This document shows, piece by piece, positions 2,244-44,075 of a stretch of DNA of 64,000 bases. The stretch comes from Bolinopsis microptera (taxonomy: Eukaryota > Ctenophora > Tentaculata > Lobata > Bolinopsidae). Below the pieces are notes generated by a model, which made no database searches, was not told where the DNA came from, and was given only the letters and a program-made list of their open reading frames with translations. The stretch covers positions 7,554,635 through 7,618,634 of the forward strand of contig NC_087079.1 of NCBI RefSeq assembly GCF_026151205.1, written 5' to 3'. Position numbers and translations under genes: made by a program. Positions within the stretch are counted from its first letter, which is position 1, and each line of letters opens with the position of its first letter.

Positions 2244-3226
2244 GAGGAGCGCCGGGATTTCCTGTTATTATTGCACTGGCAAGCGCCCCGTGTGAAAATT
2301 ACACTAGCAGAGGAGCGCCGGGAGTTCCTGTTATTATTGCACTGGCAAGCGCCCCGTGTGAAAATCACACTAGCAGAGGAGCGCCGGGAGTTCCTGTTAT
2401 TATTGCACTGGCAAGCGCCCCGTGTGAAAATCACACTAGCAGAGGAGCGCCGGGAGTTCCTGTTATTATTGCACTGGCAAGCGCCCCGTGTGAAAATCAC
2501 ACTAGCAGAGGAGCGCCGGGAGTTCCTGTTATTATTGCACTGGCAAGCGCCCCGTGTGAAAATCACACTAGCAGAGGAGCGCCGGGAGTTCCTGTTATTA
2601 TTGCACTGGCAAGCGCCCCGTGTGAAAATCACACTAGCAGAGGAGCGCCGGGAGTTCCTGTTATTATTGCACTGGCAAGCGCCCCGTGTGAAAATCACAC
2701 TAGCAGAGGAGCGCCGGGAGTTCCTGTTATTATTGCACTGGCAAGCGCCCCGTGTGAAAATCACACTAGCAGAGGAGCGCCGGGAGTTCCTGTTATTATT
2801 GCACTGGCAAGCGCCCCGTGTGAAAATCACACTAGCAGAGGAGCGCCGGGAGTTCCTGTTATTATTGCACTGGCAAGCGCCCCGTGTGAAAATCACACTA
2901 GCAGAGGAGCGCCGGGAGTTCCTGTTATTATTGCACTGGCAAGCGCCCCGTGTGAAAATCACACTAGCAGAGGAGCGCCGGGAGTTCCTGTTATTATTGC
3001 ACTGGCAAGCGCCCCGTGTGAAAATTACACTAGCAGAGGAGCGCCGGGAGTTCCTGTTATTATTGCACTGGCAAGCGCCCCGTGTGAAAATTACACTAGC
3101 AGAGGAGCGCCGGGAGTTCCTGTTATTATTGCACTGGCAAGCGCCCCGTGTGAAAATCACACTAGCAGAGGAGCGCCGGGAGTTCCTGTTATTATTGCAC
3201 TGGCAAGCGCCCCGTGTGAAAATCAA
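2244..3226. repeat. 66-bp minisatellite, about 15 units
   Basis: Fifteen near-identical 66-bp units follow one another; only a few C/T changes (ENH versus ENY in one reading frame) separate them. Because 66 is a multiple of three and the unit lacks stops in several frames, three long overlapping open frames appear (two forward, one reverse). That is a property of the period, not evidence for protein. Each unit contains GGAGCGCCGGGAGTTCCTG and a CACTAGCAG string. The low divergence points to recent expansion or ongoing homogenisation. Confidence 0.95.
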
Positions 3227-15803: not shown

Positions 15804-17951
15804 TCACTCCTCCTCGCACTCCGCCCAGACCTCCTCAGCTAGCATGAACCACTTGTTGGCCAGACGGCCGTTCATTGCTGACATGGCGGTCTCTGCAGCC
15901 TCAGTGAACAGGTAACCTGACCTTAAATTAAAATATAAGTTAAATTTAACAGCTCATATACTGCAATTAGCAAGGTGGGTTACCAAAAATTGAACAGAGC
16001 AGCGAGAAAATAGGGGTTAATTTCTCTCCTTTCTGCTTTAAAAATATTCATTATTACATTAATAATTAATGTTATCCATTGTAAGTGGCAAATACCACAC
16101 ATACTTGAGAGGGTCCTTGTTGAGACCGTGTCCCCCGTGTTGAAACATTTCCGCTATCTTAGCCAGAATCTGGTATGTTGGTTCGTGTGTGTCCATATCT
16201 GGGAGGCGGGAGATTCTTGTTCAGTTTTTGTTTGTGCTGCATTGAATCTCGAGACTTATGCTAATTATATGCTAATTGTATGCTAATTATATGCTAATTA
16301 TATGCTAATTATATGCTAATTATATGCTAATTATATGCTCGACCTCATTAGAAAAATGTATTTTGATTTTTGGCAACTGAAGAGTTTGCTTACCTGAACC
16401 AGCGGAAGAACATTCGGTGTATTTTCTGTAGTATTTCTCAGCTTTAACCCAATTCTCCTCGACCCCATACAGTCCTCTGAATATAAGAACGGAAATTAAA
16501 CATGATTTCAAAAAGGAAATCTGCCAGTTTATTTACCGTCAGCTGTTTTGAGATGAATTCGGAAATTTCACCCTCAAGATGTTGATCAAGAAATAATTCT
16601 CACTCTAAAGTGACTCACAGATGGTAAGCCTGAGCGACGTTCAATATTGCTGTGATAGTTCCATGTTTTGCAGCCTTTTCCATGTACATAATACCTTCAC
16701 TCTCACTCACGAGATTATCCTGAAAATTATTATCTGTGGTAATAACAATTGATTTTAATTCGAAAGTTTCACTTTCAAATATCAATACATTATGGTGTAT
16801 GGACTCTTATTACATCAATGCTTCTTCATACTGACCCAATCACGAACTTATTCATTAAATATTGAAAGGTGAGTTCAAAAAGGTAACGAAGAACTTTTAT
16901 GAATAGAAAAATGGCAAAATTTAAAGTTTTGCAGATAATATGAAATATCCACTATGAATCTTGTTCAGTTCGAATGTCCTCTGTGCAGAATTTTGCAGTA
17001 AGAATTTATTAGTAGTGGGTGTATGACTAACATGAGGTTAGAGATCGCTATAGACTTTACGCTATGAGCTATGAATGTGATTCTTAGGTACTGACTACCT
17101 AAGCGGGAGCAGTAGCAAGCCCAGTCTGTTAGACTGTTCAACGTCAAATCTATAACTGCACGCATTTATACGTACGTGGCAGTCATAGATCAGACATTGC
17201 ATTTTGGTTGCCCGCGTAGTACATAAAAGACACGAGTTGTTTACTAGAATAAGAAGCTTCGAGAACGTCCCAGTTGTTCCCTTCTTTCACATGCGAGTAA
17301 AAATAGCAAGACATCGTTTAAAGTATAATACACGTCATTCTCCATTATTCTAGGAGAATCAGGAACGGACATGTCACATGGAATCCAGGAGGTCTAAAAC
17401 CGAGAGGAGCTTATATAAGGTAACTAGTTCACACATTATGAGGGTTCCAATTTCACACACTAGTCTTGAAATGCTACCATGATTAGGTTAAAAGAGAAAA
17501 GTATAGTTTGTAGTTGGGAGACTACAGCGTAGCTGTATAGGTTTGGGTAAAGGTCGTATCGCAACAAATGCCCTGCTAAAGGAACGGATTTTGATACCTG
17601 AAATTTAGGGAAAAGAATCGGCGACACTTCAAAGACGCCAAATTGAAACTCTTTTCGCAATTCGATGCAATTCAATTTAATTAATATCGCCGTTGGTGAC
17701 ATTCGATCAAAAATCAAACGAACAAGTTTGATTATTATCCTAATAGTTAGAGAGTAATATAATATTTGTATTTTACAGTAAACATTTGCCTAAAAACCGA
17801 AAGGTTGATTATTGAAAATAACAGCACTGCTATAACACAACTGCATTAATATCCAACAAATAAAACATTGATATAGCAATAGTATTTTAAGAACTTACGT
17901 TGAGCTCCAATTCTCTCAGCTCGTCGTGGTAGATGTTCAAATGAAGACAAG
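15804..17951 (-). CDS. EEF2K: eEF2K last five exons: C-terminal Sel1-like helices
   Basis: Exons 17899-17951, 16619-16719, 16394-16476, 16105-16198 and 15804-15921 join in phase. They read CLHLNIYHDELRELELN; NLVSESEGIMYMEKAAKHGT; GLYGVEENWVKAEKYYRKY; MDTHEPTYQILAKIAEMFQH then GGHGLNKDPLK; and SGYLFTEAAETAMSAMNGRL, ANKWFMLAEEVWAECEEE-stop. The last part closely matches the conserved vertebrate eEF2K C-terminus (AAEAAMEAMKGRLANQYYQKAEEAW), the part known to be needed for recruiting eEF2. Stop codon at 15804-15806. Confidence 0.95.
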
Positions 17952-20900
17952 CTGAAAATTAGATAAATTAAGATAACTTTGTAAATTAGGAGTTATAACT
18001 AATTTATTATTTAAAATTTTTCAGTCGAGCAAGCTTATTCATGAAACGAGCCATTCACGCACTCTAGTTCGACAACTTACGTTTGCCAGAAATCACCCCT
18101 GTCGAGTGTCGAACTTCGGTACGTGTCGACTGTCGAACTAGAGTCCAGGTAGCGTACTCTAGTTCGACAAATAGTTTCTGCTTGTGGTCCAACGGCTATT
18201 GCCGGGTCCTTATCATAGGATCACAGGGTTCAATAGCAGGTGCACGAGATCAGAAATTTCGAAACGTTTAGGTAATCTTAAAACCTATTTATTGATATCA
18301 AGCAACCAGCGGTTGGAAATTTCAGAACCATTCAGTATAATCAATAATATTAATTGCAATTCTTCTACTTTACAAGCGTACTCTACAATCTATATCTATA
18401 AAACGGAGTACGAGTTACATGGGGCCACTTAGTCTACAATAATAGTGCTAACTAACAATTAAGACTCCGGTCAGTAAGGCACCAGATTGTTAAGTAGTTA
18501 TCAAATTAGCAATTGTCTCAATCAGCTACCAATAAGATAAAATAATGACGATGTTTACATTACACACATAGTACATATTAGTTATGTTTCATTTTAAAGC
18601 CGTATCGATTTTCTATACACATACTAAAAATCAAATGCGTAACTAAAACAGAAATGAAATTACAGAAGTTTTAAATTTGTTGTCAAAAAACGAACTTTTA
18701 GGGGTGTTTCTAATGACCAGGGTCTTATACAGCATGAGATACGTGGCAAGCAAACCGCGGGGGCAGGGGGCACGCCAATCCCGATACTGAATCCACGGCG
18801 CTCTTTTCGAATTGAAGCTTCTCGTGAGAGTAGCGAGCAATAGAGTAGCAAGCTAGGTAAATTTATATCCCGCTTATATCAACAACCAATATCATGATAA
18901 TAAAAATTGCCGATGTGATATTAATCCCATGACAAGCACTGGTGCTACTCATATAACTGCTTAACTGTTGGCGTTGCTGCACGCTATCGAATCACACAGG
19001 CATTTGATTCATTGATTCATGATTGGGATAACAACTACAAGCTCGAATGGTATACCATAATTATACATAATTATATAACCCATGAAGGTACAATACTACA
19101 ATAGTCGTATAGAACATTCCTCTAATATTACCGTTACTTCTGACTCACGGAACGTTATCAAAGTTCATATATGCTACTCAAAATTGTTCGATAAAAAACT
19201 AAATTCAAAGATATTGTGAATTACAAAATGTATCTTCATGAATATCTTTCTTGTCCAGTCGAAGTTCTCTTGTCGAACTTTAGTACGTGTCGAACTAAAC
19301 TCCAGGTAGCGTAACCTAGTTCGACAGAGTCGAACTTTAGGGTTTGTAGAACTACAGTACGTGTCGAACTAAAGTACATGTACCGAAACGAACGAACTTG
19401 TAAACAAAACTTAAAAAATAACAAAAAGTTCAAAAATTCCAAACAACAGCTACAGCTCAGTGTTGATTGCAGCAATGTACAGATGCTTTAGATATTTGAT
19501 GGTTAAAAATATTAAATTGTATGTTATTCCGTGCCGATATCATAGGCAGTCCCTTTCTCTCCCCACCAAAACGCACTCTGCGGACACATCTTGATGATCA
19601 AAATTTATGATTTACAATTGTTCAGTCGAGCAAGCTCATTCATGGCTTGTGAAAAATAAATTAAACGAAGGAACTTGTAAACAAAACTTTAAAAATAACA
19701 AAAACTTCGAAAATTCCAAACAACAGCTCAGTGTCGATTGCAAGTGCTAAGCTCCTGCATAACCAGCTGCGTCACTTTTCCCAGGAAGTTGCGCTCGTCG
19801 CACTCAGCGGACACCTCCTGCACTGCACCGGAGCGCGTCGCACTCTGCGGACACCTCCTGCACTGCACCGGAGCGCGTCGCACCTAGCAACTCCTCCCAA
19901 CTCACCACAACGTCATGTACCAAGTAACTTGCTAGCCGGCTGCATCTACCGTCGTAGTACATCGCAGCAATATCTTCAATGCGCAGCGCGCGTGAGAACA
20001 CATTCAGTTGGTATATCTCCCCGCCAAATGCTTGGTTCACATCAAAACCACCGCCCAGTGAATCCTGATCTTGTCCGACAATTAGAGTGCCACAAGAATT
20101 GTTGAGCCTGGAAGTGGTAGTCACGTGGGACTTAACGAGGACCCCGTTCACGTGGAACTCCATCAGACTTGAAGCGGAGCTCCATACCAAACAGAAGTGA
20201 TACCATTCGTTCTTCAACAAAACCAAGTCAGTCCACTCCATAACATCTGTGTTACCGACTACGTTATGGTACCAGTCGGATAACATGAGCTCGTTGAAGC
20301 GCCCCGGTACTGCGTAGCTGAACCAGATGTGCTGGGCGCGCGGGTCCAGGAACTTCTTCATCCATGTACACACGGACACAGCGGTGGTAACTTTAGAGAA
20401 GTCAGGGTTTAGCTTTATGTAGTTGTTGGTGGATACCTTCTCGGGGAACCTCAGGTAACTTTGGAGAAGTCAGGGTTTAGCTTTATGTAGTTGTTGGTGG
20501 ATACCTTCGCGGGGAACCTCAGGGTTTAGCTTTATGTAGTTGTTGGTGGATACCTTCTCGGGGAACTTCAGGGCTTTGTTTAGAGAAGTCAGGGTTTAGC
20601 TTTATGTAGTTGTTGGTGGATACCTTCTCGGGGAACCTCAGGGTTTAGCTTTATGTAGTTGTTGGTGGAGACCTTCTCGGGGAACCTCAGGGTTTAGTTT
20701 TATGTAGTTGTTGGAGGATACCTTCTCGGGGAACCTCAGGTAACTTTGGAGAAGTCAGGGTTTAGCTTTGTGTAGTTGTTGGTGGATACCTTCGCGGGGA
20801 ACCTCAGGGTTTAGCTTTATGTAGTTGTTGGTGGATACCTTCTCGGGGAACCTCAGGGTTTAGTTTTATGTAGTTGTTGGTGGATACCTTCTCGGGGAAC

Positions 20901-23900
20901 CTCAGGTAACTTTGGAGAAGTCAGGGTTTAGCTTTATGTAGTTGTTGGTGGATACCTTCGCGGGGAACCTCAGGGTTTAGCTTTATGTAGTTGTTGGTGG
21001 ATACCTTCTCGGGGAACCTCAGGGCTTTGTTCCATTGGTCAGTGTCGGCAAGGGAACCGGCGATAAGACAGAGAAACAGGACAGCAAACATTGTGGGTAC
21101 GGTGAGAAATAAAATTAATATGGTTGAATCTTTTAATCAAAAGTTGGGAGTTCCGCCGTCCCATATAATGTGCAAATTATCCGTTCATTCGTTTCATTCT
21201 CAAACGTAATTAAGTTATTTTTTAATCAAAAGTTGGGAGTTTCGCCGTCCCATATGTGCAAATTATCAGTTCATTTAATGAACATGTGGCGATTTAATAG
21301 AATTTGGGGGAACCAACCCGTTATGATATTAACAATCAGGAACACCTCAGACTTTTTGCATCATAAGTAAGACTAGAATGATCTAAATCCAATATTCTAA
21401 ACATTCAATACCTTCCTTCCCCCCCCCCCCCCCCTCATAGGCAGTCCCTTTCTCTCCCCCACCAAAACGTGTGTAATGGTGTGTAACGAAGTGGCGGTGT
21501 ATAATAAACGACCTCAATGGAGATTATATTGAAAGTAAATTAATCGCAGGTCGATAATTCACAACAGTTTTATAGCAAATAATCTTGTAATATCCTGCAT
21601 ATCACTATGAATATTCGCATAATTAATCCCAGTGAGTACGTGATTTTAGCTTTCCCTTAGCCCTACTCCAGTTCGCATATATATATACAAGAATTGCGCA
21701 CTGCAAAAAGTTCGTTATTTTCAACATTTTAAAAACTTGCAACGTTTCAATGCGTGCTAAGACCAATATAGCAAACATAGTGGGTAAGGTGAGAAAGACT
21801 CCTTAAACGTAATTAAGTTATCTTTTAATCAAAAGTTGGGAGTTTCGCCGTCCTATCTGTACAAATTATCCGTTCATTTAATGAACATGACGTGGCAATT
21901 AAATAGAATTTCGGGGAACCAACCGGTTATGATATTAACAATCAGGAACACTTCAGACTTTCTGCATCATAAGTAAGACTAGAAAGATCTAAATCCAATA
22001 TTCTAAACATTCAATACCTTTGGTTTTATAGCAAATCTTGTGATATCCTGCATATCACTATGAATATTCGCATAATTAATCCCAGAAATGAGGACATCGC
22101 CAGTTTTGTAATAATAAAGGGCACTTTAAAGCGGTAAATGGCTACACAATATTTTGTCTGCAGCCTGTAAGGGGCCTGGCCTGTGTAGTGTGTACGTGAT
22201 TTTAGCTTTCCCTTAGCCCTACTCCAGTTCGCATGTACAAGAATTGCGCACTGAGAAATGTTCGTTATTTTCAACATTTTAAAAATTTGCAACTTTTTTT
22301 TAAAGCGTGCTAAGTATTATGATTTATAAATATTCAAATAAGCAGTCAAAGAAACGAAGTGCTACCCTTAAATGGTCAGGACTAATTCTTCTGACTTTCA
22401 TTTTGCTTATTAATTCCTTGATAATCTAACTATTATCGAAATCAAGAAATTAGGACCCTAAAATAAGTGAACGTACCAAGCTGTACATTGTCAAAAATTC
22501 AAAGAATGTACAGTACAAGGTACCTTTAAATTAGATGTACAATGAGTACACTCTTCTACAGTTAGGAATAGTTTACAAGGCATTTCAACACTGAATTTGA
22601 TATGATGCTAACTAGTAGTAGAAGCAACAGTAAAAGTATAGTAAAATTAGTAGCGTTTGTAAAAGTAAGAGAGCCAATAAAAGCAACAGGTAAATTAATA
22701 GTAACAGAGAAATTAACCAAGTATAAAGAATATTATTAATATTATGAGCATAATATAATCATAGTTATTAGTATTATAATTATATAATTAAGTATAAATA
22801 TCAAACCTAAAGTGAACTCTGCGATGCTGAGACCACAATCCGCGGCTGTCTTCAAATGGAACAGAGCACTCTTGTTATCAGCCGTTTTATCCTCTTCAAA
22901 CCGTCCCATGTAGTGGTAGAGAGCCAGATCAAAGTGCACCTGTCAGAGGTTAACAGACTTCAAACACAAGGAAATATTCTTAAAAGGGCTGTTCGTTACG
23001 ATGCCGAATGAGATGACATTAATTGAAGTTCTTTGAAGAGGACCTCAAGTGATTATCTGACATGAAAACATCCAGTTTTTCTATATTATCCTCTTATTAG
23101 CTAATTAAATGCAGTTGCTATAGATATCTGCTGGTTGAAAATATTGAATCAAATGTAATTCTGATATCTTATCGGAGATGAATGCTGCCTTGTTCATTCT
23201 AGTGTGTTTCTTACCATATTATAATATGTATTGTGTTATGCATAATCGGGATAATCTTAATATTCACGTGCATATTATAAACATTACAATTCTGTATTCT
23301 ACAATTATACTAGTTTATACACTGTTTAACGAGATTTATCATAATATATTTATCATAATATGAGCCAAATTTCTGATTTTTGTTTCGAATGTTCAAGTAT
23401 ATCTACTAAAATTACCATATCCTCTCCGCGAATTTTATCTGTAAGTTTGAGATTGGATAAAAGCGCGGCATTATTTTTAGGTCAATGAAGATATCCTGAC
23501 TTTAATGTGAAAATATAGCTTTCTAAAATGATTCGGTGAAACTATTTTACAAGTAAGAGGGCTAATAGCATGATTATTAATATGTACTTAAAGTACCACA
23601 TAGTATAGTATGTAATGTGTATGAGCTGTATATCGTATAATCTTCACTATAAATTAAAATAAAGAAAAGAAGTAACCTGTCCCAGTATGGTAGCCCGTTC
23701 CTCCTTCTCCTTAATAGGAGCCCTTGTGTCCATTATATCGCTAGTACTGATATCGCACGTGTCGCTAGTACTGATATCGCACGTGTCGCTAGTACTGATA
23801 TCGCACGTGCGCTTGCGCGAGCTGGTGGCTTTCATCACACAGGAGGGACGCCTGTTGTTTGAGCCGTACAGCTGTGATCTTTTTAGCTCCTCCTGGTTGA

Positions 23901-26900
23901 GAAATGTAAGGGTGGTTTAACCAGATTTAACAATGAATTTAATAAAGATTTTATAAGCCAACCATGTATTTATTCTGTGAATAACTAAGTTACAAAAGTC
24001 ACGTTTGAAAAGCACGTGGACCAATAATAATTTCACAAAAGCTTTTATGTAATAGAAATTTCGATATTACTTATTTTAATTATAATTGATTATAATAAAT
24101 TTAAATTAGAACATACTGTGTCCCAGGCCTGATCGGGGGTATCTTCAGGAGCATCAAAACTGCTAGACGGCAAGCGAATCTTTGGTATTTGCTGCCCCAC
24201 TCCACCAACATTGTTCAGGTTAAACTGGTTTTCCTGGTAATTGTTATCACATGCTATTAATGTTACAGATAAACTATTGGAAAATATCGTGTCTTATTAT
24301 ATCAGGTAACAACGTTTTTGAATGTGATAGAAATGACCTGTTGGATATTCCGCCGGTTTAAGGCACTAACAAGCTTTGATATTCGACTTAACAGCTCAAA
24401 TTTCTAAATTTTATAAGTATAATATGAATAGTGAATATACAATTTTCTATTCTTAATAAACAATTTCCACGCCGTTGTCCTATCATTGCAGAATTATGCT
24501 AACAAGTCATGAGAGTATGTTGGAACCTCGCCAAAAAGTTGAAACAAATAAAGTACCTTTCTACCGATAGAACCCTCGTCAATACCGCTGTCAATAAAAA
24601 CATCCCTCTCAACTGTAGACTTCCCCTCACTTTCCATAGAGCTGAGCGAGCTACTCCCTGTCACGTGGGTTGTATGTTAATTGTCACGTGATTTGTATGT
24701 TAATTGTCACGTGGGTTGTATATTAATTGTCACGTGATTTGTATGTTAATTGTCACGTGGGTTGTATATTAATTGTCACGTGATTTGTATGTTGATTGTC
24801 ACGTGGTTTGTATGTTAATTGTCACGTAAATTGTAACATTTGTAATGTTTTTTTTAATAACAACTTTTCTTGAGGTTTAAAAACCTTAATTTGAATCGTT
24901 TAACGAACCAACGAATCCTTTAAAATATCCTAATTTAAATTGTAAAACAAACTTACTCAGGCAAGTTTTTCCGTCCCCAGTAGTGGTTGTTCGTTTCCTC
25001 TCCTTGGTAGTTAAATCGAACCTGCTTAGTCCTGGGGAAAAGGTCAAAGTAAGGTAAAAGTTATTTTTATTCTATTATTAGTCATCACTACGCTCTAAAT
25101 TATTGAACAACTATTGAACAATTATAGAACAACCTCCCATTTCACTTACAAAATCCATTGATGACGTTAAAATGTACCCGATAATCTTAAGTTATAAATA
25201 AGCATATCATAATTTTATGTATAATACGCCATGAAGCTTAATAAGCTAATATATTACTGCAATATATTACTGTCACATTGCAGCCACAAACCTACTATAA
25301 CCCAAAGATACAAAAAGCCTCACCTAAAGCCTCACATATAACATTACAGCGGTGTGTGTTGAAAAAGAGAGCAATACCCTTAGTGGCCAGATTACCACTC
25401 CCGTACCCCTCCCCACTGTAGGTGTGTATCTGGGGGTCCGTGTACAGGTCTCCTACTCCCTGTACATCTACCACCATGCACTTGTGCCCCGACGCTTCAA
25501 ACGTAAAGTGGGAAAATGCCTGCGGAGGGAATTGTGTGAGGGAATGCCTGCGGAGGGAGATGTGTGAGGGAATGCCTGCGGAGGGGGATGTGTGAGGGAA
25601 TGCCTGCGGAGGGAGATGTGTGAGGGAATGCCTGCGGAGGGAGATGTGTGAGGGAATGCCTGCGGAGGGAGATGTGTGAGGGAATGCCTGCGGAGGGAGA
25701 TGTGTGAGGGAATGCATGCGGAGGGAGATGTGTGAGGGAATGCCTGCGGAGGGAGATGTGTGAGGGAATGCCTGCGGAGGGAGATGTGTGAGGGAATGCC
25801 TGCGGAAGGAGATGTGTGAGGGAATGCCTGCGGAGGGAGATGTGTGAGGGAATGCCTGCGGAGGGAGATGTGTGAGGGAATGCCTGCGGAGGGAGATGTG
25901 TGAGGGAATGCCTGCGGAGGGAGATGTGTGAGGGAATGCCTGCGGAGGGAGATGTGTGAGGGAATGCCTGCGGAGGGAGATGTGTGAGGGAGTGCCTGCG
26001 GAGGGAGATGTGTGAGGGAATGCCTGCGGAGGGAGATGTGTGAGGGAATGCCTGCGGAGGGAGATGTGTGAACTACATGTTGGATGCCAAATTAGTAATG
26101 TACAGAGTGATAGTTATAATTAGGGTGCAACTGTAATCGGTTGAATGGGTTTTGTAAAAGAATAGCCATCATGGTCTTTTAACAGCTGTGGAAACGTTAA
26201 TCTGATTCTAAATTCTAATAAGGTTCAGATACGATAAATCTAGCGGTCGACCTCATGACCAGAAAAGTGGCCGTATTTCTTATTTGAAATCTAATTGTGA
26301 GTCTAGCACATGATCAGATAATGCTGGGCTCTTAGAGTGTTATATTACAAACATCGCGTGACTCTGCTACTCTCGACTGTGTGAGGTCATCACTCTGTGT
26401 TGTTCCTTTCTCTGTGCTTTGTTGTAGCCTTGGATCTTAAATTTAACTTACTTTTTCATTTTCGAATTCGGTCGCCGAACGTGAGGTGCGATCTGTGTCA
26501 TTTTTTGATAATTGGGGGTCGTTCACATATTACGTAATCAATATTTTAGCAACTTTTACCCCTCTACCCCCTCCGTAATCAACCGTTATCAACCGTTATC
26601 AACCGTAATTAAGACCCCCCCCCCCCTCCTGACAGCAATATTACGTAATTATGGCCTGACCCCCGGCCCCCCCCCCCCCCCTTGATTTTTTCCCCTAGAA
26701 AACACTTTTCTCTACGTCTCATGCTACCCTTATCATGCTATCATGATGAGCCGACATCATTGTTATGATATCCGCCAACCACCTTCTAAACTACTTACCA
26801 TTAGTATTAGTATTATAGTCGGATATTCGATCTATTTCTAAATTTTATCACTATCAGAGTGCAATTGAGTGCAATTTGAATTCAATATTGTCACATTTTT

Positions 26901-29900
26901 ATTATTCTAGAGGGCAAAAAAGAAAATTTTGAGTACGTAATCAACGACCACCCCCCCCCCCCCCTCCCCCGTAATCAACCGTAAGCATTTGGAAACCCCT
27001 CCCCCTCGGCTGATTACATAATATGTGAACGACCCCTTGATGTCTAATCATATTGTCTGATTTTCCTAACCAAATACAAATAATTGCTCCCTACTTTCAT
27101 ACTATCAATAAATAATATATATTATATTGATACAATATACAAATTATTGAAAAGTATATTACTCCCACTTCTAGTTATGGAAGAAACAATTCTACTAATG
27201 CTGAAGGATGAAGATCCCCTCAATGTTTCCAAGCAGTTACTTGTTGCTGATAGCGCAATGTTTCGCTATCTAATAGAAGAGATGCACCAAGTGGAACTCG
27301 AATTTGATGATTTCTTGGCGGAAAATGTAACGCTGTTTATCACTCTGTTGGATGATAGGGAGCTGGGGAATGTACATAACGGAAACTTCAGGGAGTTAAA
27401 TAAACTTGCGGAAGTATTTGTTATAGATTGGATGAAGGAAGAGTGTAGACAGTGGTTAAAGAAGAAGGCGGAATGTGCAAGGACGGTTTGTGTTTGAAGA
27501 ATGCATGTACACTATCAGGAAATGGGATAATAAAGCTATGATGAACGTTTTATTGTCGGAATTAACGCATCAAGACAACTCGTCTTTTGTGTTGGAATAT
27601 ATGACGGGTTTAGATGAACAGGACACCGGTCAAATAGACAATATGATAGTTCTCGGAGGGAGCAATACTGAGCCGTTCCTTCGTACTATTCTAGCGAACT
27701 TGGAAGGAAAGGTGAAACTGGACGAGAATTTGAAGTATCTCCTCCAGCAGATGAATCTAGCCCTGAGTTTCGAACAAAACAAGGAACTTTATCTTGAGGT
27801 TTATAAGACAATTGAAAACCTACCAGAAATATCAGTAGGTGATATAAAATGTGTTCTCCAGTTGTCGACGAAAACAACTTCATTAGTCAGTTCCCGTAGT
27901 GAAGCAAGAAGGTTGAGAACTACTGAGGTGGATGATACGAAGAAATATGTAGACTTAGTGATCAGTTGTAAAAAGATAACAGATATCACAGACGCAGTTC
28001 TGGGTAACAAGGTGACGTCTGTGTTTGTTGTTGTTGAACTGCTGCTCCGTGTTTACTACATCAAAACACCCAGTACAGAGGAGACACGAGTATTCATGAC
28101 AACACTAGAGGAATGTTGCAAGGAGAAAAAACTGCAGAAAGTATCGAAAATATTTTTGGGAATAGTAATCAACGCCTGAAACTATTCTCCAAAAGTACAA
28201 AAGGTTGAACTTATCGCAATTTTGAATGAGATAACGAACAATGATAATCTCTCAACCCACCATGAGAACATACTCATTAAAAGTGATCAGTATATCGACG
28301 TGTCACCAATATCAGCACAAAGATTAGTCAGTACTGTGAAACATGCTATGACAGGAGATAAGAGTATGCCAGTAGGTACTGTGTACAAGCGTCTCTTTAC
28401 ATTCCGACATCCCAGCACAGTGGAGTGTACAGAAGCTGGTAAATGTGGTTTTATATTAAGAGGCAGTAAACAAGACGAGGATAGTTATATAGAAGAACTG
28501 TCTACTAACAGTGAAGACTACGAGGGTACAGGACTACATCTACACGATGTCGTGTCTGGTAGTGACATGTACAGGTATAGCTGTATAGGATATGCTCAGG
28601 TAACACAGCTCCTGATAACATTATTCAAGTGGCAGGACGGTGGTGGGGGTGGGAGTGGTGGTTACCAGATGTAACTAACTGGGTGTATAAACAGCACTGT
28701 GTTGAGTATGACATATCTGATTACGTTGTTACTAAAAGATAACAAGTTCGATTTTAAAACAGAATTAGTATTAACTATTAGCTAGATATACAATTCGGCT
28801 CGATTTCGTAATATCAGAGTATCAGTTAGATCAATATTTATTTAGTTTCTTTTATAGTTCATTTAGTAGTTTAGTTCAAATACTTGAAAATTGCACGTAA
28901 TTTTCTTGTATTTTACTCTTGTACAGAACGTGTTGAATGCAAAATATTGGGTATGCGTGCCAATCGCTATGTTATTTTAGTTGCATGATTCAAAATATTC
29001 AATGTTGTTGACAGTATTGTGAACTATTTTCAGTTTCGTAAATGATTTTAGTGAATAACACTAGTAGCAGTATATTGACAAATCAACACAAATTATTTGT
29101 AAGAATGACATTTTATTGTTCTACTTTCAAAACGTTACAATTACTAGCAGGAACCCGTATAATATAACCCTAAACGGTGTCAAGACTCAAGAGACTAAAA
29201 TAATTATTACCTATTTAATTGGCGTTTTTGACACCACTTGGGGGTCCAAATTTTGGGCTCTAAAATCATTATTCCTTGGCCAATTTTTATTTTTTCATGC
29301 TGATTTGTAGGCCATTAAAGCATTTGACCCAGTCAAAAAAGTTTCAGTTGTATATCTTTTACGGTTTTTGCAGAAAGTCGCGTTAAAGTTGATGCCGTGG
29401 TGTCAGTAAAATGGCACAGATATATATATATATATATATATATTTTGTAGCTGTACTCCTACACATTAAAAGTCGGTGTTGATTAGATCTTCGAAATAAG
29501 TCTTTGCATCATTTTATTAAACATCGTTATCTGAGATAAAATTGTTCTAAAAGCAACTGGAATATTCACAAATCTTTAAAATAACTTACAAACTAGGAAA
29601 GAAAAACAAGTCTTAGGAAGACGTACAAAACTATGTGACTTAAAACGGTACAAAACTAAAATATACTGAGTAATAATCAAACGAAAAGAATATATATATA
29701 TATATATGTAGCTATTACCTTGCTAGTTATGAGTAAATTTTTGCCTTCCATCAATTGAGTGCAGCTTTCAGTTTCAAAATTTTCAGTTTATTCAGATTTT
29801 TCGTTTTCGATATTGCAAATTTTTAATAAATCATGTTCAGATTATGGTGATAATGGATGTAAAGGTACTTCAACCGAATTAACAATCCAACCGTGTGTAT

Positions 29901-32900
29901 GACGTGTCCCAGTAGCCAATCATAATATATGTATTTCTACCGGTGGCACATACTGGATGGCGGTTAGATGAGTACACTACTCTCACAAGCATCTCGAGTC
30001 TCTCGGTGATCCTGCCTCCACACCACACTCAGTCTGGACTCCCTTCCGGCCGACCGAACTATTTTCCTAATATCTCCTAATATAACTTTGATCGAACAAG
30101 CCTAAATTCATGATGCACTATAAACTTGATTTGAGACAGAAATTTTAGACAATTTATCTGCTTACGTGTAATTTCAAACTCTTATCAGTTACCATGTCTT
30201 TTATCTAATTTTTATCAGCAGATTTATAAATCTGCTGTTCATTTGTAGCTATTACCTTGCTAGTTATGAGTAAATTTTTGCCTTCCATCAATTGAGTGCA
30301 GCTTTCAGTTTCAAAATTTTCAGTTTATTCAGATTTTTCGTTTTCGATATTGCAAATTTTTAATAAATCATGTTCAGATTATGGTGATAATGGATGTAAA
30401 GGTACTTCAACCGAATTAACAATCCAACCGTGTGTATGACGTGTCCCAGTAGCCAATCATAATATATGTATTTCTACCGGTGGCACATACTGGATGGCGG
30501 TTAGATGAGTACACTACTCTCACAAGCATCTCGAGTCTCTCGGTGATCCTGCCTCCACACCACACTCAGTCTGGACTCCCTTCCGGCCGACCGAACTATT
30601 TTCCTAATATCTCCTAATATAACTTTGATCGAACAAGCCTAAATTCATGATGCACTATAAACTTGATTTGAGACAGAAATTTTAGACAATTTATCTGCTT
30701 ACGTGTAATTTCAAACTCTTATCAGTTACCATGTCTTTTATCTAATTTTTATCAGCAGATTTATAAATCTGCTGTTCATTTGTAGCTATTACCTTGCTAG
30801 TTATGAGTAAATTTTTGCCTTCCATCAATTGAGTGCAGCTTTCAGTTTCAAAATTTTCAGTTTATTCAGATTTTTCGTTTTCGATATTGCAAATTTTTAA
30901 TAAATCATGTTCAGATTATGGTGATAATGGATGTAAAGGTACTTCAACCGAATTAACAATCCAACCGTGTGTATGACGTGTCCCAGTAGCCAATCATAAT
31001 ATATATATATATATATCGTCTCGCTTTATATATAGTAAGATTGGCTATCTCAGATCATAAGTAGAATTTTGACATGATTAATAAAAATTAAAAACAATAA
31101 CGTTCGTATTCTTTCGTATCAATTATGAAATTTTCGAGAATTAGTGGCAGATTTGGTTTTCTGAACTTATTTTTTCGCGATGTTTCTTCAAGTGTTTTAT
31201 GAGGTTGCTATTTGCTATCTATTTTGTGCCCGATGAAGTCAGCAAGCAGGTTAGCATGTCTTCAATAATATCCCTAGTAACCAGCTGCTTGTAGAATCTG
31301 TCTTAAGGTCTTAATACGGGAAATTCCAAACACTTTTAAAATCTTGTTTTTCAACTACTCCTCCCACAGATTCCACAAATATAAATTATAATGATTTATC
31401 AGTTGTAGTAGCCTGTAGTAGCCTGTAGCAGCCTGTAGCAGCCTGTAGCAGCCTGTAGCAGTCTGTAGCAGTCTGTAGCAGCCTGTAGCAGCCTGTAGCA
31501 GCCTGTAGCAGCCTGTAGCAGCCTGTAGCAGCATGTAGCAGCCTGTAGTAGCCTGTAGCAGTCTGTAGTAGCCTGTAGTAGCCTGTAGCAGCCTGAAGTA
31601 GCCTGTAGTAGCCTGTAGCAGCCTGTAGCAGCCTGTAGCAGCCTGTAGTAGCCCCTGTCAACAAGATGTGAACATCTCGCCATCTAACCAGAAACTTCAC
31701 GGTCAATTAGCTCGCCCAGTAAGATTATAGTGCCCAGGTGTGTACACTGTACCTGTAGTATAAAGCCAATTATATACACATAATATATAATTTATCGGCC
31801 GGGTGGTGTAGTGGTAACACGGTCGCCTCCCAAGCAGAAGACCTGGGTTCAAATCCGGTCGGATGCAAGTCGGCTAGTAACCAAGCTGTGATTTGGTACA
31901 GCTTCGGCTGGTGATACACACTCTCTGGCTCGTAGGACTAACCCCCGTCCCCCCTACAGCTAGTATAGTGCCTCGGCACAGAGTGGCTTAGGGTTACTGA
32001 AAAGGAGATAAGCACCTCAGGCCATCCCAACGTTCGGGAGAGACCTGGCCTTGTATCTTGTTGTTGTAATATATAATGAGGGGCACTCAGAATTAAATTG
32101 TGTTCTGTTTGGAATGAGCGAGGTCATATTTTCGCACCGTTTTAACTACGAAAATGTGTTTTCGAATATAATAGGCGGGTTTATACTTTTGCATTTCAAC
32201 TGCGATAGTGAAGTCCCGGCCGTAGGCACGGGTTACACTAGTATACACATTACACATAATACCAGTCCGACATGTTATGCAAATGAGATGATCACCTGTG
32301 AGAGGTACAAATCTCCAGGTGGTCCAAACTTCTTCACTGGTCTAGAAGTCTGAATACTTCTTCACTGTTCTAGAAATCTCACATACCCTCTCATAGTTTG
32401 ATGAGGGCTAACTCTTAGACGCTCTAAAGTCACGACAATTCGGCTTCATGACAGAGTTGTGTATAATATTATACATATTTATATTCCATTCGGACACGAA
32501 GGGAAACACACCATGTTCGGCTTGAATCCTTCGTAAATATATATATATATTATGATTGGCTACTGGGACACGTCATACACACGGTTGGATATATATATAT
32601 ATGTATAAACTACATCTTTACAGCCTAACAAATTATTTGTTACATAGTAGTGATTAGTGTTGAAAGCATTATAATTGTAGTATTAGATTTTTGGTATGAT
32701 CGAGATTGATTGCTAATATATATATATAATATAATATATAATATGATTGCGCTTGGAGAGAAATGTTACCAGTGCTCTAAAACGCTCTATTATATTAGTA
32801 TATTAATGAGCTTACACATGGTAAGAGGGTACGGACCTCTATGAAATTGTAATGAGACTTTCGTTTAAATACTCGACTTAATCTGAGCCAGGTTTTGAAC

Positions 32901-35900
32901 CGATCAGGGTTGCTTCACTTCTTATCACATTCACATTATACAGTCAGTTTGGTATGTAGCTGTACTGTTATGTAAGTTGAGTAAATATTTAATCTAATAA
33001 CAACAAATTATTTCTAACAGCAGACAATATTAGTTACATTTTATTAATGCTTTTCAAACAAAGTTAAAACGAATTCTTCATGTATAGTAGTGCATCCTGG
33101 GTTTGGACAGGATATGACCCGTTTAAAATATTTCCATCACGTTACATTACATAATTCTCAATAAATGTAATAGATTTGTAGTGTTGTAATTAGTATTATG
33201 ATTTTAATACGCTATCAGTTACCTGGGGAGTGTTCCGGCAAATATGCTGAGAGTTGCTTTCCACATAACCACTGTTGGAGTTGTACTTCACATACTCACC
33301 CTCTGAAACACGTACAAATTAAACAGTGTTTCCCTCTGAAACACGTACAAATTAAACAGTGTTTCCCTCTGAAACACGTACAAATTAAACAGTGTTTCCC
33401 TCTGAAACACGTACAAATTAAACAGTGTTTCCCTCTGAAACACGTACAAATTAAACAGTGTTTTGTAGCTTCAAGCTGAAATTATTGAGAAAACATATAT
33501 ATGGGGGGGGGGGGATAAGCCTGGCCCATTGATACCCATGCCCATTTGACCAAAAGTTGAGGAATAAATGGGCATAATTTTCATAACTTAAAATTAAAAT
33601 TAAAAATTTCTCACAATAGGTGGAAAAAAGTCCAAAATCGCCGAAAAAGGGGACGTTTTTCTCCCCTTTTCGACTCTCGGAAGCGTGAACCTACCTATAA
33701 CAGACTCCACGTGATACAAAGGACTGTCGGGCCTATCAACAAGCTCAACTATCATCATCTGCATGATGTCTATCTTCTTGGGAGGATTAGCTTTGTTGTA
33801 TTCCTCAGACCAGAATTTTGCGTCCATTTGCAGCTGAATGTCGTCAAAATACGCCTGTCTGTAACGATCATTTTCAATATTTTGAAGCATACTGAACGTA
33901 AGGTAAAATACTAGACACATAATAATAACAACAAATATAATTTATTAAGGTGCTTTTAATTTAGAATAAGGATTAAGGAATGCTGCCACACATTAATAAG
34001 TGTATTTAACAACACTAAACCCTATCTGTTGGAATAACATGTGTTAGTGTGTTTTAGACAAGTTTCCAACAAATGCTGTATAAAACTAGGAAATAAAACA
34101 GTCTGGACACTCGAGTTTACTTCCAGACTTCTTTACTCTTTTACATAATACAGTGTAGTGATTAATATTACCCCACATAATTAATTAATTGATTAATTAC
34201 CCACATAATTAATTAATTGACTAATTACCCACATCGAACAACTAAGTTTGTCACAAATTTCTTCCAATCGAGATCAGCTGATCAGAAAAAACTTCAAATG
34301 CACATGCAAGAGTTTCAATAATCGTTATCCTTGATTGGGCTTTGTAATAAAATTCATTCACAGCAGGCAATACGAAATTGCAATTTACATGGTCGTATGT
34401 TGATCTGATATCGATACAATATTGTGACTGTGTGATTATATTATAAAGTTACAGCTTCAGCATTAAATTTGCGCACAAATAATTAACATTCAGACATTCA
34501 GCTAACACTTTTAATCATTGACACTTTGACAGGTATAACACAATTTTTATTATTTGTTATATATTATTCCTAAATGATAAAATATTCATAATATTGTGAT
34601 TTGCGAAGTTATCATCGTTAATCTTTATAATATTTGGATATACATTATACATACATTAATTATTTTATGTTTGAAAAGTTCATCGTATATTTATAGATGG
34701 TTTTACTTGATTCCCCTATTATATTATCAAGCTATCAAGGGAAGTTTAGAGTGTCAGTTATTTATAAAAGAAACGATTACAATTTTGAATTTATATCACA
34801 TTATCATTATCCTTTTTTAGATGGAAACATACCAAATAATTTGTTTTATGGAATATTTATTTAGCAAGAGTTAATCCGACACTAAATGGTTTTAAAAAAG
34901 TGTTACTGAACTCTTAGGTAAAGTGGTTGAACAAGGATTTAAGTTAGCTGCATTGCCCAAGTTTGCAAAGTTTTATAAATCGAAATTAAATATATGGGGA
35001 AAATATGGTAGTGACATTTATGATGAATTTATCGAAATGCTTCAATCACCTAACATTATTTTGTGATTTTTATTGTCATATGTTAACTTTTTATTAAGTT
35101 ATAAAGATACTTTTATAATATTAATTGTTTGATTATTTGCGATTAATTTGTATTGATTTATTGTTTGTGACTTACAAATTAGTAATCAATGATTGACTAA
35201 TCATTGTAGTATCGTTTATAAAATTATTGTTAGAATTTAAATTTATATGAAGAATTTAAATGTATTATGAAGAAACACGATTTTGTAGATTCATTTATTG
35301 CTTGTTTAATTTGTATTAATTGTGCTTCTTGATTTATTATTATCTGTATCTGAGATTCTGTGATTAAATATATTTTGTTGATTATAATGTAATGATTGCA
35401 TAATTTATGGTAAATTTGTTATATTTCAGTATAGGTGTAGCCAGTCAACACCCTGGCTCCAAAATATGAAAGACTTGTTTTGATTCTAAATGATAAGCTC
35501 GAACATATCTGAAACACATATTAAAAAACATAGTAAGGAAACTAATCAACCAACCTATCAACAGGACTCAAATACTTTTTGACTACTACATTGGAAAAAG
35601 GCATATTCCATTCTTCTTTTTTATCTTTGTGAGCAAAATCAGCTATACTGCTAAAATAAATTTCACTATTAATTAGCTGAAACAATAAATCACAATAAAT
35701 AGCTGACAATGCTGCAAAAAATCAAGTTTCTAAATCTACTAGCTTGGAATAAGAATACAACCTCGTTGAACGAAGAATTTGCACATGAATCAGTAATAAA
35801 AGTAAGATTAGCTTCACAAGATCAGTAGTTACTATAAATCATTTACTACTGAGGCGATAATCACAAAAAAAGCGCTGACTCAAGAAAATAGTTTTCAATC

Positions 35901-38900
35901 TACCTGTCTGATTCTTTGAAGTACTTTTTAGCCACAACATTGGCGAAAGGTAGATTCCAATCTTCTTCAGCACTTCTTGCTGCAAACTTGGACAGCTTTT
36001 TAGCTCGAAAACACTCTCTCATTGCACCATTGGCGAAGGGCTGCAATGGTATTTATGATAGAATTTCCTATTTGAATTACTAGCATTAGAACAGGTACAT
36101 CCTTCTAGAATTGGTAAATTTATTTTTTAACTTCTAAAGAAAGAAGAATTGTCTACCTTTCCATCAATCCTAACTTCTACTTCATCAGAGAAGAATTCCC
36201 TCTTAGTCATATCATAGCGCCACCTCTTAGCTCTTTCAATCGGGAACTGCTCAATAATGTATGCCCATTGATCTTCTTGGTGTGTCTAAACAAGTAGCAC
36301 CGTAAACAGTTTATATATTGTTAATTTCCTTAAACTATTAAACAACAACAGCTCTTGCCTGAAATACCATCATATCTATGTCTCCTAGTCGTTACACTAT
36401 TCCATAATCCCCATAACCCAAGCCTGAAACTTTCCTAATCCCACAAAAGTATAGTTGCCGTTGTGTTACACAAGGAAGCGAATATTGCCTTTACCCCGTC
36501 AACTATCAGTTCATCTGCAGTATGACTAGTATGCAAAAGCCCAAAATTATCCTAAGTTGCTTGAAATTGGTATATCAATTTTATGAAATAATCATGAAAT
36601 ATGTCACTGCGCACTGTGCCCTACATAGACTGAAGGATATCTGGAAATCAAAACTCTCAAAGATTAAGATACGATTGTTCATAGCGGCTTATGAGTCAGT
36701 AATGCTCTACAGATCAGAAACCTGGACACTGACAAAGGCTCAAGAGAAAAGTTTGGACATACACAAAGATGCTGCGTATGGTGCTGGGTATCTCATGGAA
36801 GAACAAGGTCAGCAATATAACTTTGTATGGTAGCCTAGGCTGGCAAAGGAGTTACGAAGCAGGAGATTAAAAATGACGGGACACTGCATCAGACATCCTG
36901 AGCTTCTTGCCCGTGAGTCTTATGGGAACCTATGCATGGTAGAGCACCAATACCATGCATAGGTTCCCATAAGACTTAATCACTGCTCTGAGCACAGCAA
37001 GGACGGCCAAGACAAAGCTACTTGTCTATGTTACTGAAGGAAGTTGGGAAAAATTCTAGAGAAACTGCGAACCCTGATGCGGGACAAGGATATAAAGAGG
37101 GGGTTATCTGGCGTAGATCGGACTTAGTTTACATAATTGATAGCTTTTCTTGATATTGCTCTATAATTACATTTATATCTCTCCCGGCCATTGGTTCCGA
37201 GATTTGGTTGATCTTTGTTTTCTTGGGCGCCCTCCTTGAAGTCTTGTTGTTGTACATACATCTCCTGATTTATCCTGTACTTACCTGTTTATTTCATTTT
37301 CTGGCGTGAGCTGTCCGCCATGCTACGGTACGAGAAACAGCGGCAGTGCAAGATCCGGTTCTAAGAGATTTTTATGGTCGCGAAGAATCTCGCCAGGCTA
37401 CACTGCGTCGGTGGGAGAACTATTTAGGTTCATGACATCTAACGCCCGCCCAATCATGGCAGCCCCATGACAATAGGTTGATGTCCGACCCGTTGTCCTT
37501 GGCCTATCTCGAGTCGTTGGGTCTAGGCGGAAACGCCGAAAGGGATGATGTTACCTTCTTGACTTAAACGTAATGGTAAATTTTTCTCAAAATCCTTGAA
37601 TAAATGGGTAACCCCTAGTAATGTCTTTTCTAGCACTTTTAGATGTTGCAATGGTAGAGGTTGTCTCACTTGCAACAGTTTTAATCCTGTTAATACATTT
37701 AGGAGCAGTACTTTTAATAATGATTTTATCTTTGGACATACAAATTTTATATTTAATTGTAAAACTAATAATGTTATTTATGTTATTACCTGTTCTACCT
37801 GTAAAAAACAATATGTTGGAGAAACAACTCAACCACTTCATAAAAGAGTCAATGGCCACAGAAATTGTGTCAAAGCCAAATCATCCACATTTTTATATGA
37901 ACATTTTAATATTCCTGGTCACGTCTTCTCAGATGCTTCCATACAGATTGTAGATTATGTTGATTCTGACATGTCCACTGATGTCAAAAATGATTTACTT
38001 CTCCTGGAGGATTACTGGATAGAGAAGCTTGGGACAGCATTCCCTCTTGGTCTTAATGACAAGAAGAAAGGAACGGGCAACATCTCCCAAGATCGGGTTA
38101 TGAATTATTTTAGTGGACAGATTGCTCGATACAAACGTGGCAGAGGGAATGGAAAGAAGAAAGTTCAGCCTAAGAAGTCTCTGGATACCATAGAGTCTGA
38201 TATTAACAGGCTGAAAGATAACATCTCTTCAGAACATTCCATATACAAAACATTAAAATGTTATAGCTTATCAGATTTAGACACTCTCTACTCTTTGAGT
38301 CAATATAATTCAGGATTGATTTACAACGTATGTTCCTCTTTCTGTTCAACATTTTCCCCCAAATACCATCAGAACAAATCTGAATCCAGTAATAGAGAAT
38401 TTATAATTGTTCCATTTAATTGCAAATTCATTGATAATCTTAACCTAAAATCTATTTTCTCTGACACTTCAGTCATTGATTTGCTTCCCATTTTGATTCA
38501 GTCTTTTACACCATTACAGATTTATTATGAGTATAATGATCCTATAAGTCTTTCTATTTGTAACTATGCTTCATTCTTAAAGAAACTTTCTATTTCTGAT
38601 ATTAAATCTATTTTAGGTAGTCCATGCGATTGTCACTCCTCCCCTTTCAATTATCCTCCTCATGGACATGTAGTTACTGGTAATTTAGATATTGTTGATA
38701 ATGTTGAACTTAGGGAAGTACTTTCCTACGGTTGTAAATACAGAATTCCCACATTTAAATCTCCAGATGAGATATATATGTCAGTTACCGAAGCTGTCGA
38801 TAAATTTATAAAATCAAAAAGTAGAAAGTACTGTCAAAAAGAAGTAAAGTTCAGCGATTGGAAGGAAAAAGTGTTATCAATAGTTTCCAATCGTATTGAA

Positions 38901-41880: not shown

Positions 41881-44075
41881 CTAGTCTGGCCAGACTGTAT
41901 CGGCAGCCCAGAGGTACTTGATCAGATTGGCCTTAAAAGTAGAAATCCGCTCTGACTGCCGGATACATACTGGTAGACTATTCCATTTCAGCATAGATCT
42001 ACGAAAGAAGCTATTTCGGAAGGCATCCGAGCAGGGCACAGTGGTACTCATGTAAGTTGAAGTATCCGACCTATCAATTATTTGAGCATTGTGCCTAGTG
42101 TATCGGGTGCCCTCTGGACGGCATAGGACTATATAGGTAGGAAGCGAAACTGGGATTATGCTATTCACTATTTTATAGAAGGTCATAAGATCGTTATAAA
42201 TAAACTTCTGCATGACAGGGAGAATATTTAGCTTCTTTTGCTCTGTAGAAAGTTTATCGTCATTATAACTCGAGTAGGGTTCACCATTGATCCATTTAAT
42301 AGCCCTCTTTTGGATAGCAACAAACTGTTGAAGATGAGTTGCAGATTGAGGGGACCATATGACAGAACAATGTTCAAATATAGACCTAATTAACGCCAAA
42401 TAGAACGATCTTTTCTGCCTTTTATCAGTAGTGAAATGACATGTTCTCTTAAGTAGTCCAAGTCTGGAGTTAGCTTTGGAAACAAGCGCTTTACATTGTG
42501 CACCCCAATTAAACCTGGAGTTTATTGCGACTCCTAAATCTGACTGAGAGGGCACAAAGTCAATATCACTTCCAGAAAGTTTATAGAAGAAGGTATTGAA
42601 TGGCAAGTTATCCAGCACGTTTCTTTGCAGGGACACAGAGAGGGCTTTGCACTTTTGTGGATGGAACTTCATTCGATTTCTCACTGACCAATCATACAAT
42701 CTATTGATGTCATTTTGGATTATGTGATGGTCAGGGTAACCAAGAATCTCCCTCCAAATTTTAGTGTCATCTGCATAAAGGGCGATATTGGTGCCTTCAG
42801 AGACACAGGAGAACATGTCATTTATAAATATTACAAACAATAGAGGGCCAAGTATAGAACCTTGAGGGACACCAGACCGAACTGGTAGAGAGGAAGACGT
42901 TTGGCCTCCTATCACTACTTGTTGTTGTCGCCCCTCAAGATAGGACTTGATAAATTTAAGCATTAGTCCATCGACTTTAAAAATATTCTTTAATTTACTT
43001 AAAATGAGGTCATGCGAAACGCTATCAAAAGCTTTCGCAAAATCAAAATATATTATATCAGTCCTGGACCTGTTGTTCAGTGCAAGTGCAAGATTGTCCG
43101 TGAAAGGTATCATTTGGGTTGTGCATGAACGTTCATTAACAAAACCGTGTTGTCGGTCATCCAACAGATCAGAACATGCAGCGTATAATGCAGTCTTTAT
43201 GCACCTTTCAAAGACTTTCATTACAAGAGATGTTAACGAGATAGGCCTGTAGTTCTCAACCGAAGACTTATCACCCTTTTTGTGCACTGGTACTACAAGT
43301 GCCAGCTTCCAATCAGGGCGTATGCATCCGCTTGAGAAAGACAGGTTAAATAAAACACTAAGTGGGTATGCAAGGCTTTGGGCACAGTTTTTGAGGACTT
43401 TCCCATGAATCCCATCAGGGCCAGGGGCCTTGTTAGGATTTAACTTTTTAAGAATCAACAGAACATCTTCTCTATTAAACACAAGACTGGAAAAACAATC
43501 ATCACGAAAATCTATGTCAATGCCATAATCGCTCTCTTGAGAAAACTGCTCATAAAAATATTCGTTAAAAAGGGCAGCTTGATCAGATGGATTGTTTCGA
43601 AAGCGATTATGATATTTAACAGTTTCAGGGATCCTGGTTGACTTTGATTTAGACTTAACGTAGGTCCAGAATTTCTTGGAGATAAGAGCATCATCGGAGT
43701 CATCCTCAACACTGAGTCTCATTTTTTCGTCCATCATATTTTTAAATTTTGTTCGAAATGCACGAAACTTTTGTTTATGCTTTTATGAGACTCAGAGTTG
43801 CTCCCCTTATGCCTTATTCTCCATTTCTCCTTATTTCGTAGGAGACGATCACATTCGGAGTCATACCATGGAGGCTGGAACTGAGACTTAATGGTCTTTT
43901 TAGGGATCCATCGGTCACAGGCTGCATCAAGAACTCCTCTGAATCGACTCCAGGCAAGATAAGGATCATTACACTCAAATATACTATCCCAATCGATGCT
44001 AAATAACTCAGAATTCAGGCCCCTAAAATTACCTTTACTATAATTAAAGATCTTTCTTTTAGGCTGCTTAATAGA
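41881..44075 (-). mobile_element. APE-type LINE, reverse transcriptase part
   Basis: A 618-codon frame (41881-43737) carries RT motifs: NKAPGPDGIHGKVLKNCA, NYRPISLTS, YFDFAKAFDSVSHDLI, SGVPQGSILGPLLFVIFIND and ALYADDTKIW, and ends PVCIRQSERISTFKANLIKY. Upstream, after a one-base frameshift near 43783, the linker continues (CDRLLRNKEKWRIRHKG, DPYLAWSRFRGVL) to about 44075. The missing endonuclease part lies at 46985-48278 on the same strand; KTKYI at the break joins KQPKRKIFN, so this is one element split by an insertion. It belongs to the CR1/Jockey-like assemblage. Confidence 0.92.

Follow-up and report, generated by a model that had tools for sequence, protein, structure and literature searches.

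Identity of the gene and anatomy of its array

Does a 3' splice site that stands about twenty times in tandem before a conserved exon take part in the expression of its gene, or is it a passive product of local expansion? The question is raised by a 64,000-nt stretch of the Bolinopsis microptera genome (NC_087079.1, 7,554,635-7,618,634; hereafter the window), for which a first-pass annotation had suggested that array length and acceptor choice could tune the output of the kinase eEF2K or insert a repeat peptide into it.

The exons of this gene lie consecutively on the minus strand, as found by tblastn with a human eEF2K query (the sequence on which all human residue numbers given here were computed). 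The 171 residues encoded by the joined exons C-F match human eEF2K (PDB 9ocw, E=3.3e-67; 7shq, E=3.9e-67), with myosin heavy chain kinase A (MHCK A) as the next best structural relative (E=2.4e-41), and contain the Pfam domain Alpha_kinase (PF02816, E=1.4e-50, 172.4 bits). The gene is thus eEF2K, as the first-pass annotation had named it, with an alpha-kinase domain whose nearest solved relative is eEF2K itself. Exon E, which opens with AFSHFTFEASGHKCMVVDVQGVGD and closes on the residues THRCNVICEAL, holds the counterparts of human H260, D274, H312, C314 and C318 (numbered on the human query sequence); we take these to be catalytic or zinc-binding residues, and H260 to be a zinc ligand. The junction of exons D and E reads NTPQ/AFSHF here and LTPQ/AFSHF in human eEF2K (the slash marks the boundary), and since no gap separates the two halves we took 25519 as the true start of exon E. 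Considering that exon E is conserved and its conserved residues are intact, the join of exon D to this proximal site is presumably made.

The acceptor of exon E is at the same time the repeat unit of a 28-bp minisatellite (TRF: 25515-26071, period 28, 19.9 copies, 98% matches, score 1072), whose minus-strand unit reads CCCTCACACATCTCCCTCCGCAG/GCATT (Table 1). Both the amplification of this acceptor to about 20 copies and the placing of the true exon start (exon 25519 to 25324) in the exon-proximal copy, as first annotated, are therefore borne out. Each unit contains a single AG, a pyrimidine run and a TCACACA stretch with adenines at -14, -16 and -18 relative to the exon; GT is absent from its coding strand, and the unit represents a 3' and not a 5' splice site. 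Upstream of the true site lie 19 copies (numbered k, the number of units upstream of the true acceptor), 18 of which close on CAG, while the k=7 copy has CAT in this place.

Table 1. Window coordinates of the eEF2K exons and of the arrays at their acceptors (a slash marks an intron-exon boundary)
Feature	Position	Strand	Sequence or basis
Exon F	24957..25031	minus	GLSRFDLTTKERKR...
Exon E, 196 nt	25324..25519	minus	AFSHFTFEASGHKCMVVDVQGVGDLYTDPQIHT...THRCNVICEAL
28-bp x 19.9 minisatellite	25515..26071	minus	unit = final 23 intron nt and initial 5 nt of exon E; TRF
True, exon-proximal 3' splice site of exon E	25520..25542	minus	CCCTCACACAATTCCCTCCGCAG; gapless join as in human eEF2K, 92nd-percentile score
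k=7 copy, CAT replacing CAG, no acceptor AG	25716..25718	minus	sequence reading
Intron D-E, 7.7 kb	25520..33222	minus	3' end formed by the 28-bp array; exon coordinates
Exon D, 80 nt	33223..33302	minus	(E)GEYVKYNSNSGYVESNSQHICRNTPQ; phase 0 into exon E; basis includes alignment to human eEF2K
33 bp x 5.0 array across the exon D acceptor	33299..33463	minus	unit ...TTTAATTTGTACGTGTTTCAG/AGGG; TRF, 100% match
Exon C	33695..33858	minus	QAYFDDIQLQMDAKFWSEEYNKANPPKKIDIMQM...HVESVI

Strength and reading frames of the upstream acceptors

An acceptor matrix trained on 37 acceptors from other genes of the B. microptera genome scored the true exon E acceptor at 11.41 (92nd percentile of these reference sites) and the standard array unit at 10.73 (86th percentile), the k=2 copy coming out slightly above the true site. 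Among the 24,445 AGs present in 200 kb, only 0.07% scored as high as the true site and 0.14% as high as the standard unit. By this measure the array copies have much the same strength as the true site and constitute strong acceptors beyond chance; as they score nearly as high, an exclusive use of the proximal copy is not explained by the sequence alone.

In 41 introns of the same genome adenines were found to be somewhat enriched at -12 to -20, which makes the TCACACA stretch of the 28-bp unit a plausible candidate branch point, while a motif search of these introns returned no clearly prominent motif and no clear consensus. Were the branch point instead to lie upstream of the whole array, a first-AG rule would select the distal copies and most transcripts would retain array sequence. 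The distal-most copy (k=19, 26051) does retain both the acceptor and TCACACA; however, its use shifts the frame into a stop and would inactivate a conserved kinase, and with a branch-point-like stretch in every unit the rule would be expected to act unit by unit. We thus consider this possibility highly improbable.

The first-pass annotation had further stated that the array brings no stop in any frame, which is correct for the array itself (zero stops in all three minus-strand frames) but fails beyond it, where shifts by one or two units run into a stop in exon E. Its arithmetic is sound: three units equal 84 bases or 28 residues, whereas one or two units change the frame. Accordingly, k=3, 6, 9, 12, 15 and 18 are in frame and open through exon F, with 28 residues added per three units, and the remaining 13 upstream positions (12 with an AG) frameshift to a stop inside exon E. 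The 18 usable upstream acceptors are thereby divided into six that insert 28-168 residues and 12 that lead to a premature stop. The insertion point corresponds to the Q256/A257 junction of the human protein, with the H260 counterpart as the fourth residue after the insert.

It is conceivable, on these numbers, that array length sets the dose of eEF2K, with more acceptors giving rise to more frameshifted and decayed transcripts and a 28-residue insertion form persisting as a minor isoform. The 18 strong competing upstream acceptors and a frame arithmetic that yields unproductive as well as in-frame products would suit such tuning, as would the human minisatellite that is presented in the title of Turri 1995 as providing multiple splice donor sites. 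Nevertheless, we find it unlikely: the insert would lie inside the kinase domain and before the H260 counterpart, likely leaving the inserted forms inactive, and the comparable minisatellites of lancelets (so-called mirages) were reported to be neutral for splicing. The same gene provides a further argument against it in the form of a second acceptor array, missing from the first-pass annotation, in which the acceptor of exon D (33302 to 33223; TTTCAG/AGGG) is the unit of a 33-bp repeat. Here all four upstream acceptors add EGNTV followed by an in-frame TAA, and therefore no open in-frame option exists and no repeat peptide is possible from this array. The predicted exon D acceptor is weak on the matrix (its score of -0.44 falls under that of every one of the 37 training sites, and 36% of AGs score as high); it was identified by the continuity of the protein with human eEF2K and not by its own strength.

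Probable local origin and homogenisation of the array

A search of the 264.65-Mb genome (264,652,675 bases in 232 contigs) with the 25-bp core of the unit, at up to 2 mismatches, returned 19 matches, all of them inside the 28-bp array. The confinement of the unit to one locus indicates that the array was born locally, most simply from exon E's own acceptor. For the unit itself, an origin by way of a mobile element was rejected, as this search showed no dispersed copies of it. An identical 23-nt acceptor context is shared by 16 of the 19 upstream copies, and the exon-side copy deviates from it; this points to recent or ongoing homogenisation from which the boundary copy was excluded, as judged by a comparison of the copies and not by a tree.

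Variant copies (k=2, 7, 10 and 17) are irregularly placed and do not recur as copied blocks, which speaks against an array that was over-expanded or collapsed during assembly, and its 557 bp are far below the typical length of long reads. The assembly was built by wtdbg from PacBio data, with Illumina reads used for polishing, a procedure that could misjudge copy number; yet a PacBio coverage above 70x is stated (PMC10232365). An artefact of this sort thus appears very unlikely.

A retrocopy of eEF2K would document the mature mRNA, and none was seen among the 22 genome matches listed for PF02816. The best listed match reached 104.4 bits against 172.4 for the joined exons C-F, so that there is no near-intact spliced copy among them, though a decayed one is possible. 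The open frames of two other PF02816 matches (L001 and L004) both belong to other alpha-kinases. L001 (contig C7) and L002 (14-kb contig C195) are alpha-kinase matches of equal score and matched span, and this pair is probably a leftover haplotig.

We hold, with a probability of roughly three in four, that the 28-bp array is a mirage-type minisatellite, i.e. a passive local expansion in which the proximal copy is productive and use of the upstream copies amounts to splicing noise at most. A 28-bp segment spanning the boundary of intron D and exon E, and with it an apparently complete 3' splice site, would have been duplicated in tandem and then, through slippage or unequal exchange, multiplied until about 20 copies stood in a row, in a genome whose introns are rich in arrays of this type. 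The productive eEF2K mRNA would then be spliced from exon D to the exon-proximal copy, whereas 12 of the 18 usable copies would impose a premature stop and expose their transcripts to the expected nonsense-mediated decay. Exon definition, in which the acceptor pairs with the donor at the other end of the 196-nt exon, would give the nearest copy an advantage, and decay would remove the products with a shifted frame.

Splice-site arrays elsewhere in the genome

Tandem arrays occupy 27.8 kb of the 264 kb formed by 20 evenly spaced 10-kb stretches of contig C7 and the window (the G+C content of the 200 kb sampled was 38.5%). To relate them to splice sites, 65 junctions (all predicted) were mapped by eye; they come from eEF2K itself, from 14 of the 20 kinase loci and from a single myosin gene. 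The kinase loci left out were L049, a near-copy of L047, and L040, L043, L046, L050 and L054, where a clear splice site could not be made out; L039 and L053 have their 3' flank in common and are thus not fully independent. The myosin gene (of 73 matches) and four kinesin regions, compact ones out of 109 matches, were chosen for their small size. A second set comprised 41 introns with both ends in view (82 predicted splice sites) from 8 sources, including the four kinesin loci; the window's intron B-C was omitted because of the duplicated exon in between.

Around the 65 junctions, arrays cover 7.8% of the first 10 intron nt and 11-18% of the positions at 10-400 nt, and therefore no targeting is needed to account for arrays at splice sites. 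By the definition that the first or last intron base lies inside an array, 4 of the 82 splice sites of this small sample were in arrays (2 of 74 without eEF2K), namely the eEF2K exon D and E acceptors, the donor of a kinase that is AKT-like by eye (L055; VVYR/GTTAG in a 33-bp, 5-copy array) and a kinesin donor (L061; GGAG/GTGAGG in a 13 bp x 21.7 array that begins at the first intron base).

In a permutation test, 9 of 25 arrays crossed a splice site or came within 10 nt of one (4.5 expected, P=0.014), and 7 of 19 did so without eEF2K (3.9 expected, P=0.07); the corresponding values were P=0.20 at up to 5 nt without eEF2K and P=0.19 for the myosin and kinesins alone. The null let arrays extend into the flanking exons, by as much as 20 nt on the donor side and 6 nt on the acceptor side, which raises the expectation, and an array of L057 that begins at the second intron base was not scored as being on a splice site. 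Preferential targeting of arrays to splice sites is not borne out by these data: coverage does not rise at the junctions, and P is 0.07 without eEF2K. A mild excess is possible, and array density alone could explain most of it. Splice-like motifs in the repeat units themselves give a weak signal: of 90 strand-tests on 45 arrays (the 28-bp array of eEF2K included), 9 showed 3'-splice-like motifs in excess of shuffles at p<=0.05, where 4.5 would be expected, and for 5'-splice-like motifs the count was 4 of 90.

That arrays generally cover about 8-18% of near-exon introns, with no clear preference for splice sites, also counts against an eEF2K output tuned by array length. An even broader proposal, in which splice-site minisatellites are pervasive in the ctenophore and the length of the eEF2K array works as a dial (18 full-strength upstream acceptors diverting transcripts to decay or to 28n-residue inserts, with allele length setting the kinase dose and the arrays feeding new exons and introns), strikes us as quite unlikely. 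A passive expansion remains our preferred reading.

Several observations were made at these loci in passing. In the AKT-like kinase (L055:885-1057, minus strand), the donor VVYR/GTTAGTTTCAG forms the array unit, the array takes in about 20 exon bases, and the standard unit carries (by eye) no stop in the frame of the exon. The kinesin gene L061 (minus strand) holds arrays or duplications at 347-633, 1191-1812 and 2088-2324; a 21-bp x 29.6 array begins 5 nt inside another of its introns, and an acceptor together with the start of its exon is duplicated (79 bp, 95% identical). Arrays with CTCACTAA-like units stop 10 and 5 nt before an acceptor at L057:5337-5444 and L044:1187-1252, respectively, and could be branch-point arrays. 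The myosin head of L057 shows (by eye) neighbouring copies of one exon at 2713-2907 and 2965-3188, which are possibly mutually exclusive.

Neighbouring features of the window

On the same strand as eEF2K, a pentraxin gene (19804-21136, minus; Pfam Pentaxin, E=2.2e-28) is placed between the eEF2K exon matches 22796-22960 and 15810-16704. Between the end of its signal peptide and its domain lies a composite array of 49, 68, 117 and 166 bp (20386-21031), which repeats a coding segment and, if read straight, has stops in all three frames. An N-lobe exon segment of eEF2K occurs in two similar copies (35554-35646 and 35903-36067, minus; DWNLPFANVVAKKY and EWNMPFSNVVVKKY), a duplicated exon that may be alternative. 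Upstream of the mapped eEF2K exons, at coordinates above theirs, we found an open frame of 924 aa that includes a GIY-YIG domain (37563-40337, plus strand) and whose look we take to be Penelope-like, and another of 633 aa that includes a reverse transcriptase domain (41881-43782, minus). The palindrome TCACGTGA is far more frequent than expected from base composition, both in the window (16 against 0.8) and in the 200 kb sampled (L009-L028; 34 against 2.5), and CACGTG is contained in several short arrays of the window (TRF).

Comparison with known minisatellites

Minisatellites named 'mirage' are known in the amphioxus genes Adh3 (with units of 10-72 bp), BflGb6 and BflGb9 (globins) and troponin C, and PGBD5 is similar. 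They occur in several genes of one lancelet genome, where normal splicing is reported to persist; in PMC3902484, the troponin C mirage is said not to generate aberrant mRNAs and PGBD5 to have imperfect repeats. The 28-bp array resembles them in its head-to-tail copies (28 bp x 19.9, 98%), in a unit that spans the exon-intron boundary (23 intron nt and 5 exon nt) and in the presence of splice signals in many copies (CAG in 18 of 19 upstream ones), and it is like BflGb6 in having homogenised internal copies with the boundary copy excluded. It differs in its host, a ctenophore and thus a member of another phylum, in its copy number (about 20 at exon E, against 6 and 3 in two haplotypes of BflGb6) and in that two consecutive exons of a single gene have arrays. 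The exon E array is described here from one haplotype of the locus, its unit occurring at a single place in the assembly. Within the open-licence PMC papers found, the name 'mirage' is applied to lancelets only, and no title there related to ctenophore minisatellites.

The minisatellite of human IFI6/6-16 (Turri 1995) reportedly holds multiple splice donor sites, and it is cited elsewhere for 'interfering with gene splicing'. It shares with the 28-bp array the repetition of a splice site within a gene, but the array of eEF2K, a case described from sequence, repeats acceptors (3' splice sites) and not donors. In the potato RdRp gene, according to PMC4974935, an intron was gained by tandem duplication across an intron-exon boundary; there too the duplicated segment carries a branch site, a pyrimidine tract and a 3' splice site, although a single duplication produced a new spliced intron, whereas no new intron is proposed for eEF2K. 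Internal tandem repeats are also described for duplicated genes of human (PMC2812944). In likeness to eEF2K, their units (30 bp on average) modify gene structure and some are located where exons and introns meet, but unlike the eEF2K array these repeats belong to segmental duplications, have transcript support and comprise 4 units on average.

The 28-bp array is thus a known kind of structure, extended to a ctenophore genome, and the phenomenon is wider than the first-pass annotation had it, as it concerns two eEF2K exons and other genes. With it, mirage-type minisatellites gain a ctenophore host and a first, small-sample rate (4 of 82 predicted splice sites, or 2 of 74 without eEF2K); if a rate of a few per cent of splice sites held genome-wide, there would be thousands of array splice sites. 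Some 20 near-identical and apparently complete 3' splice sites before a conserved exon represent a natural experiment on acceptor choice among equals, and, should there be any use of the upstream copies, arrays of this kind would readily supply unproductive splicing, repeat peptides and new introns.
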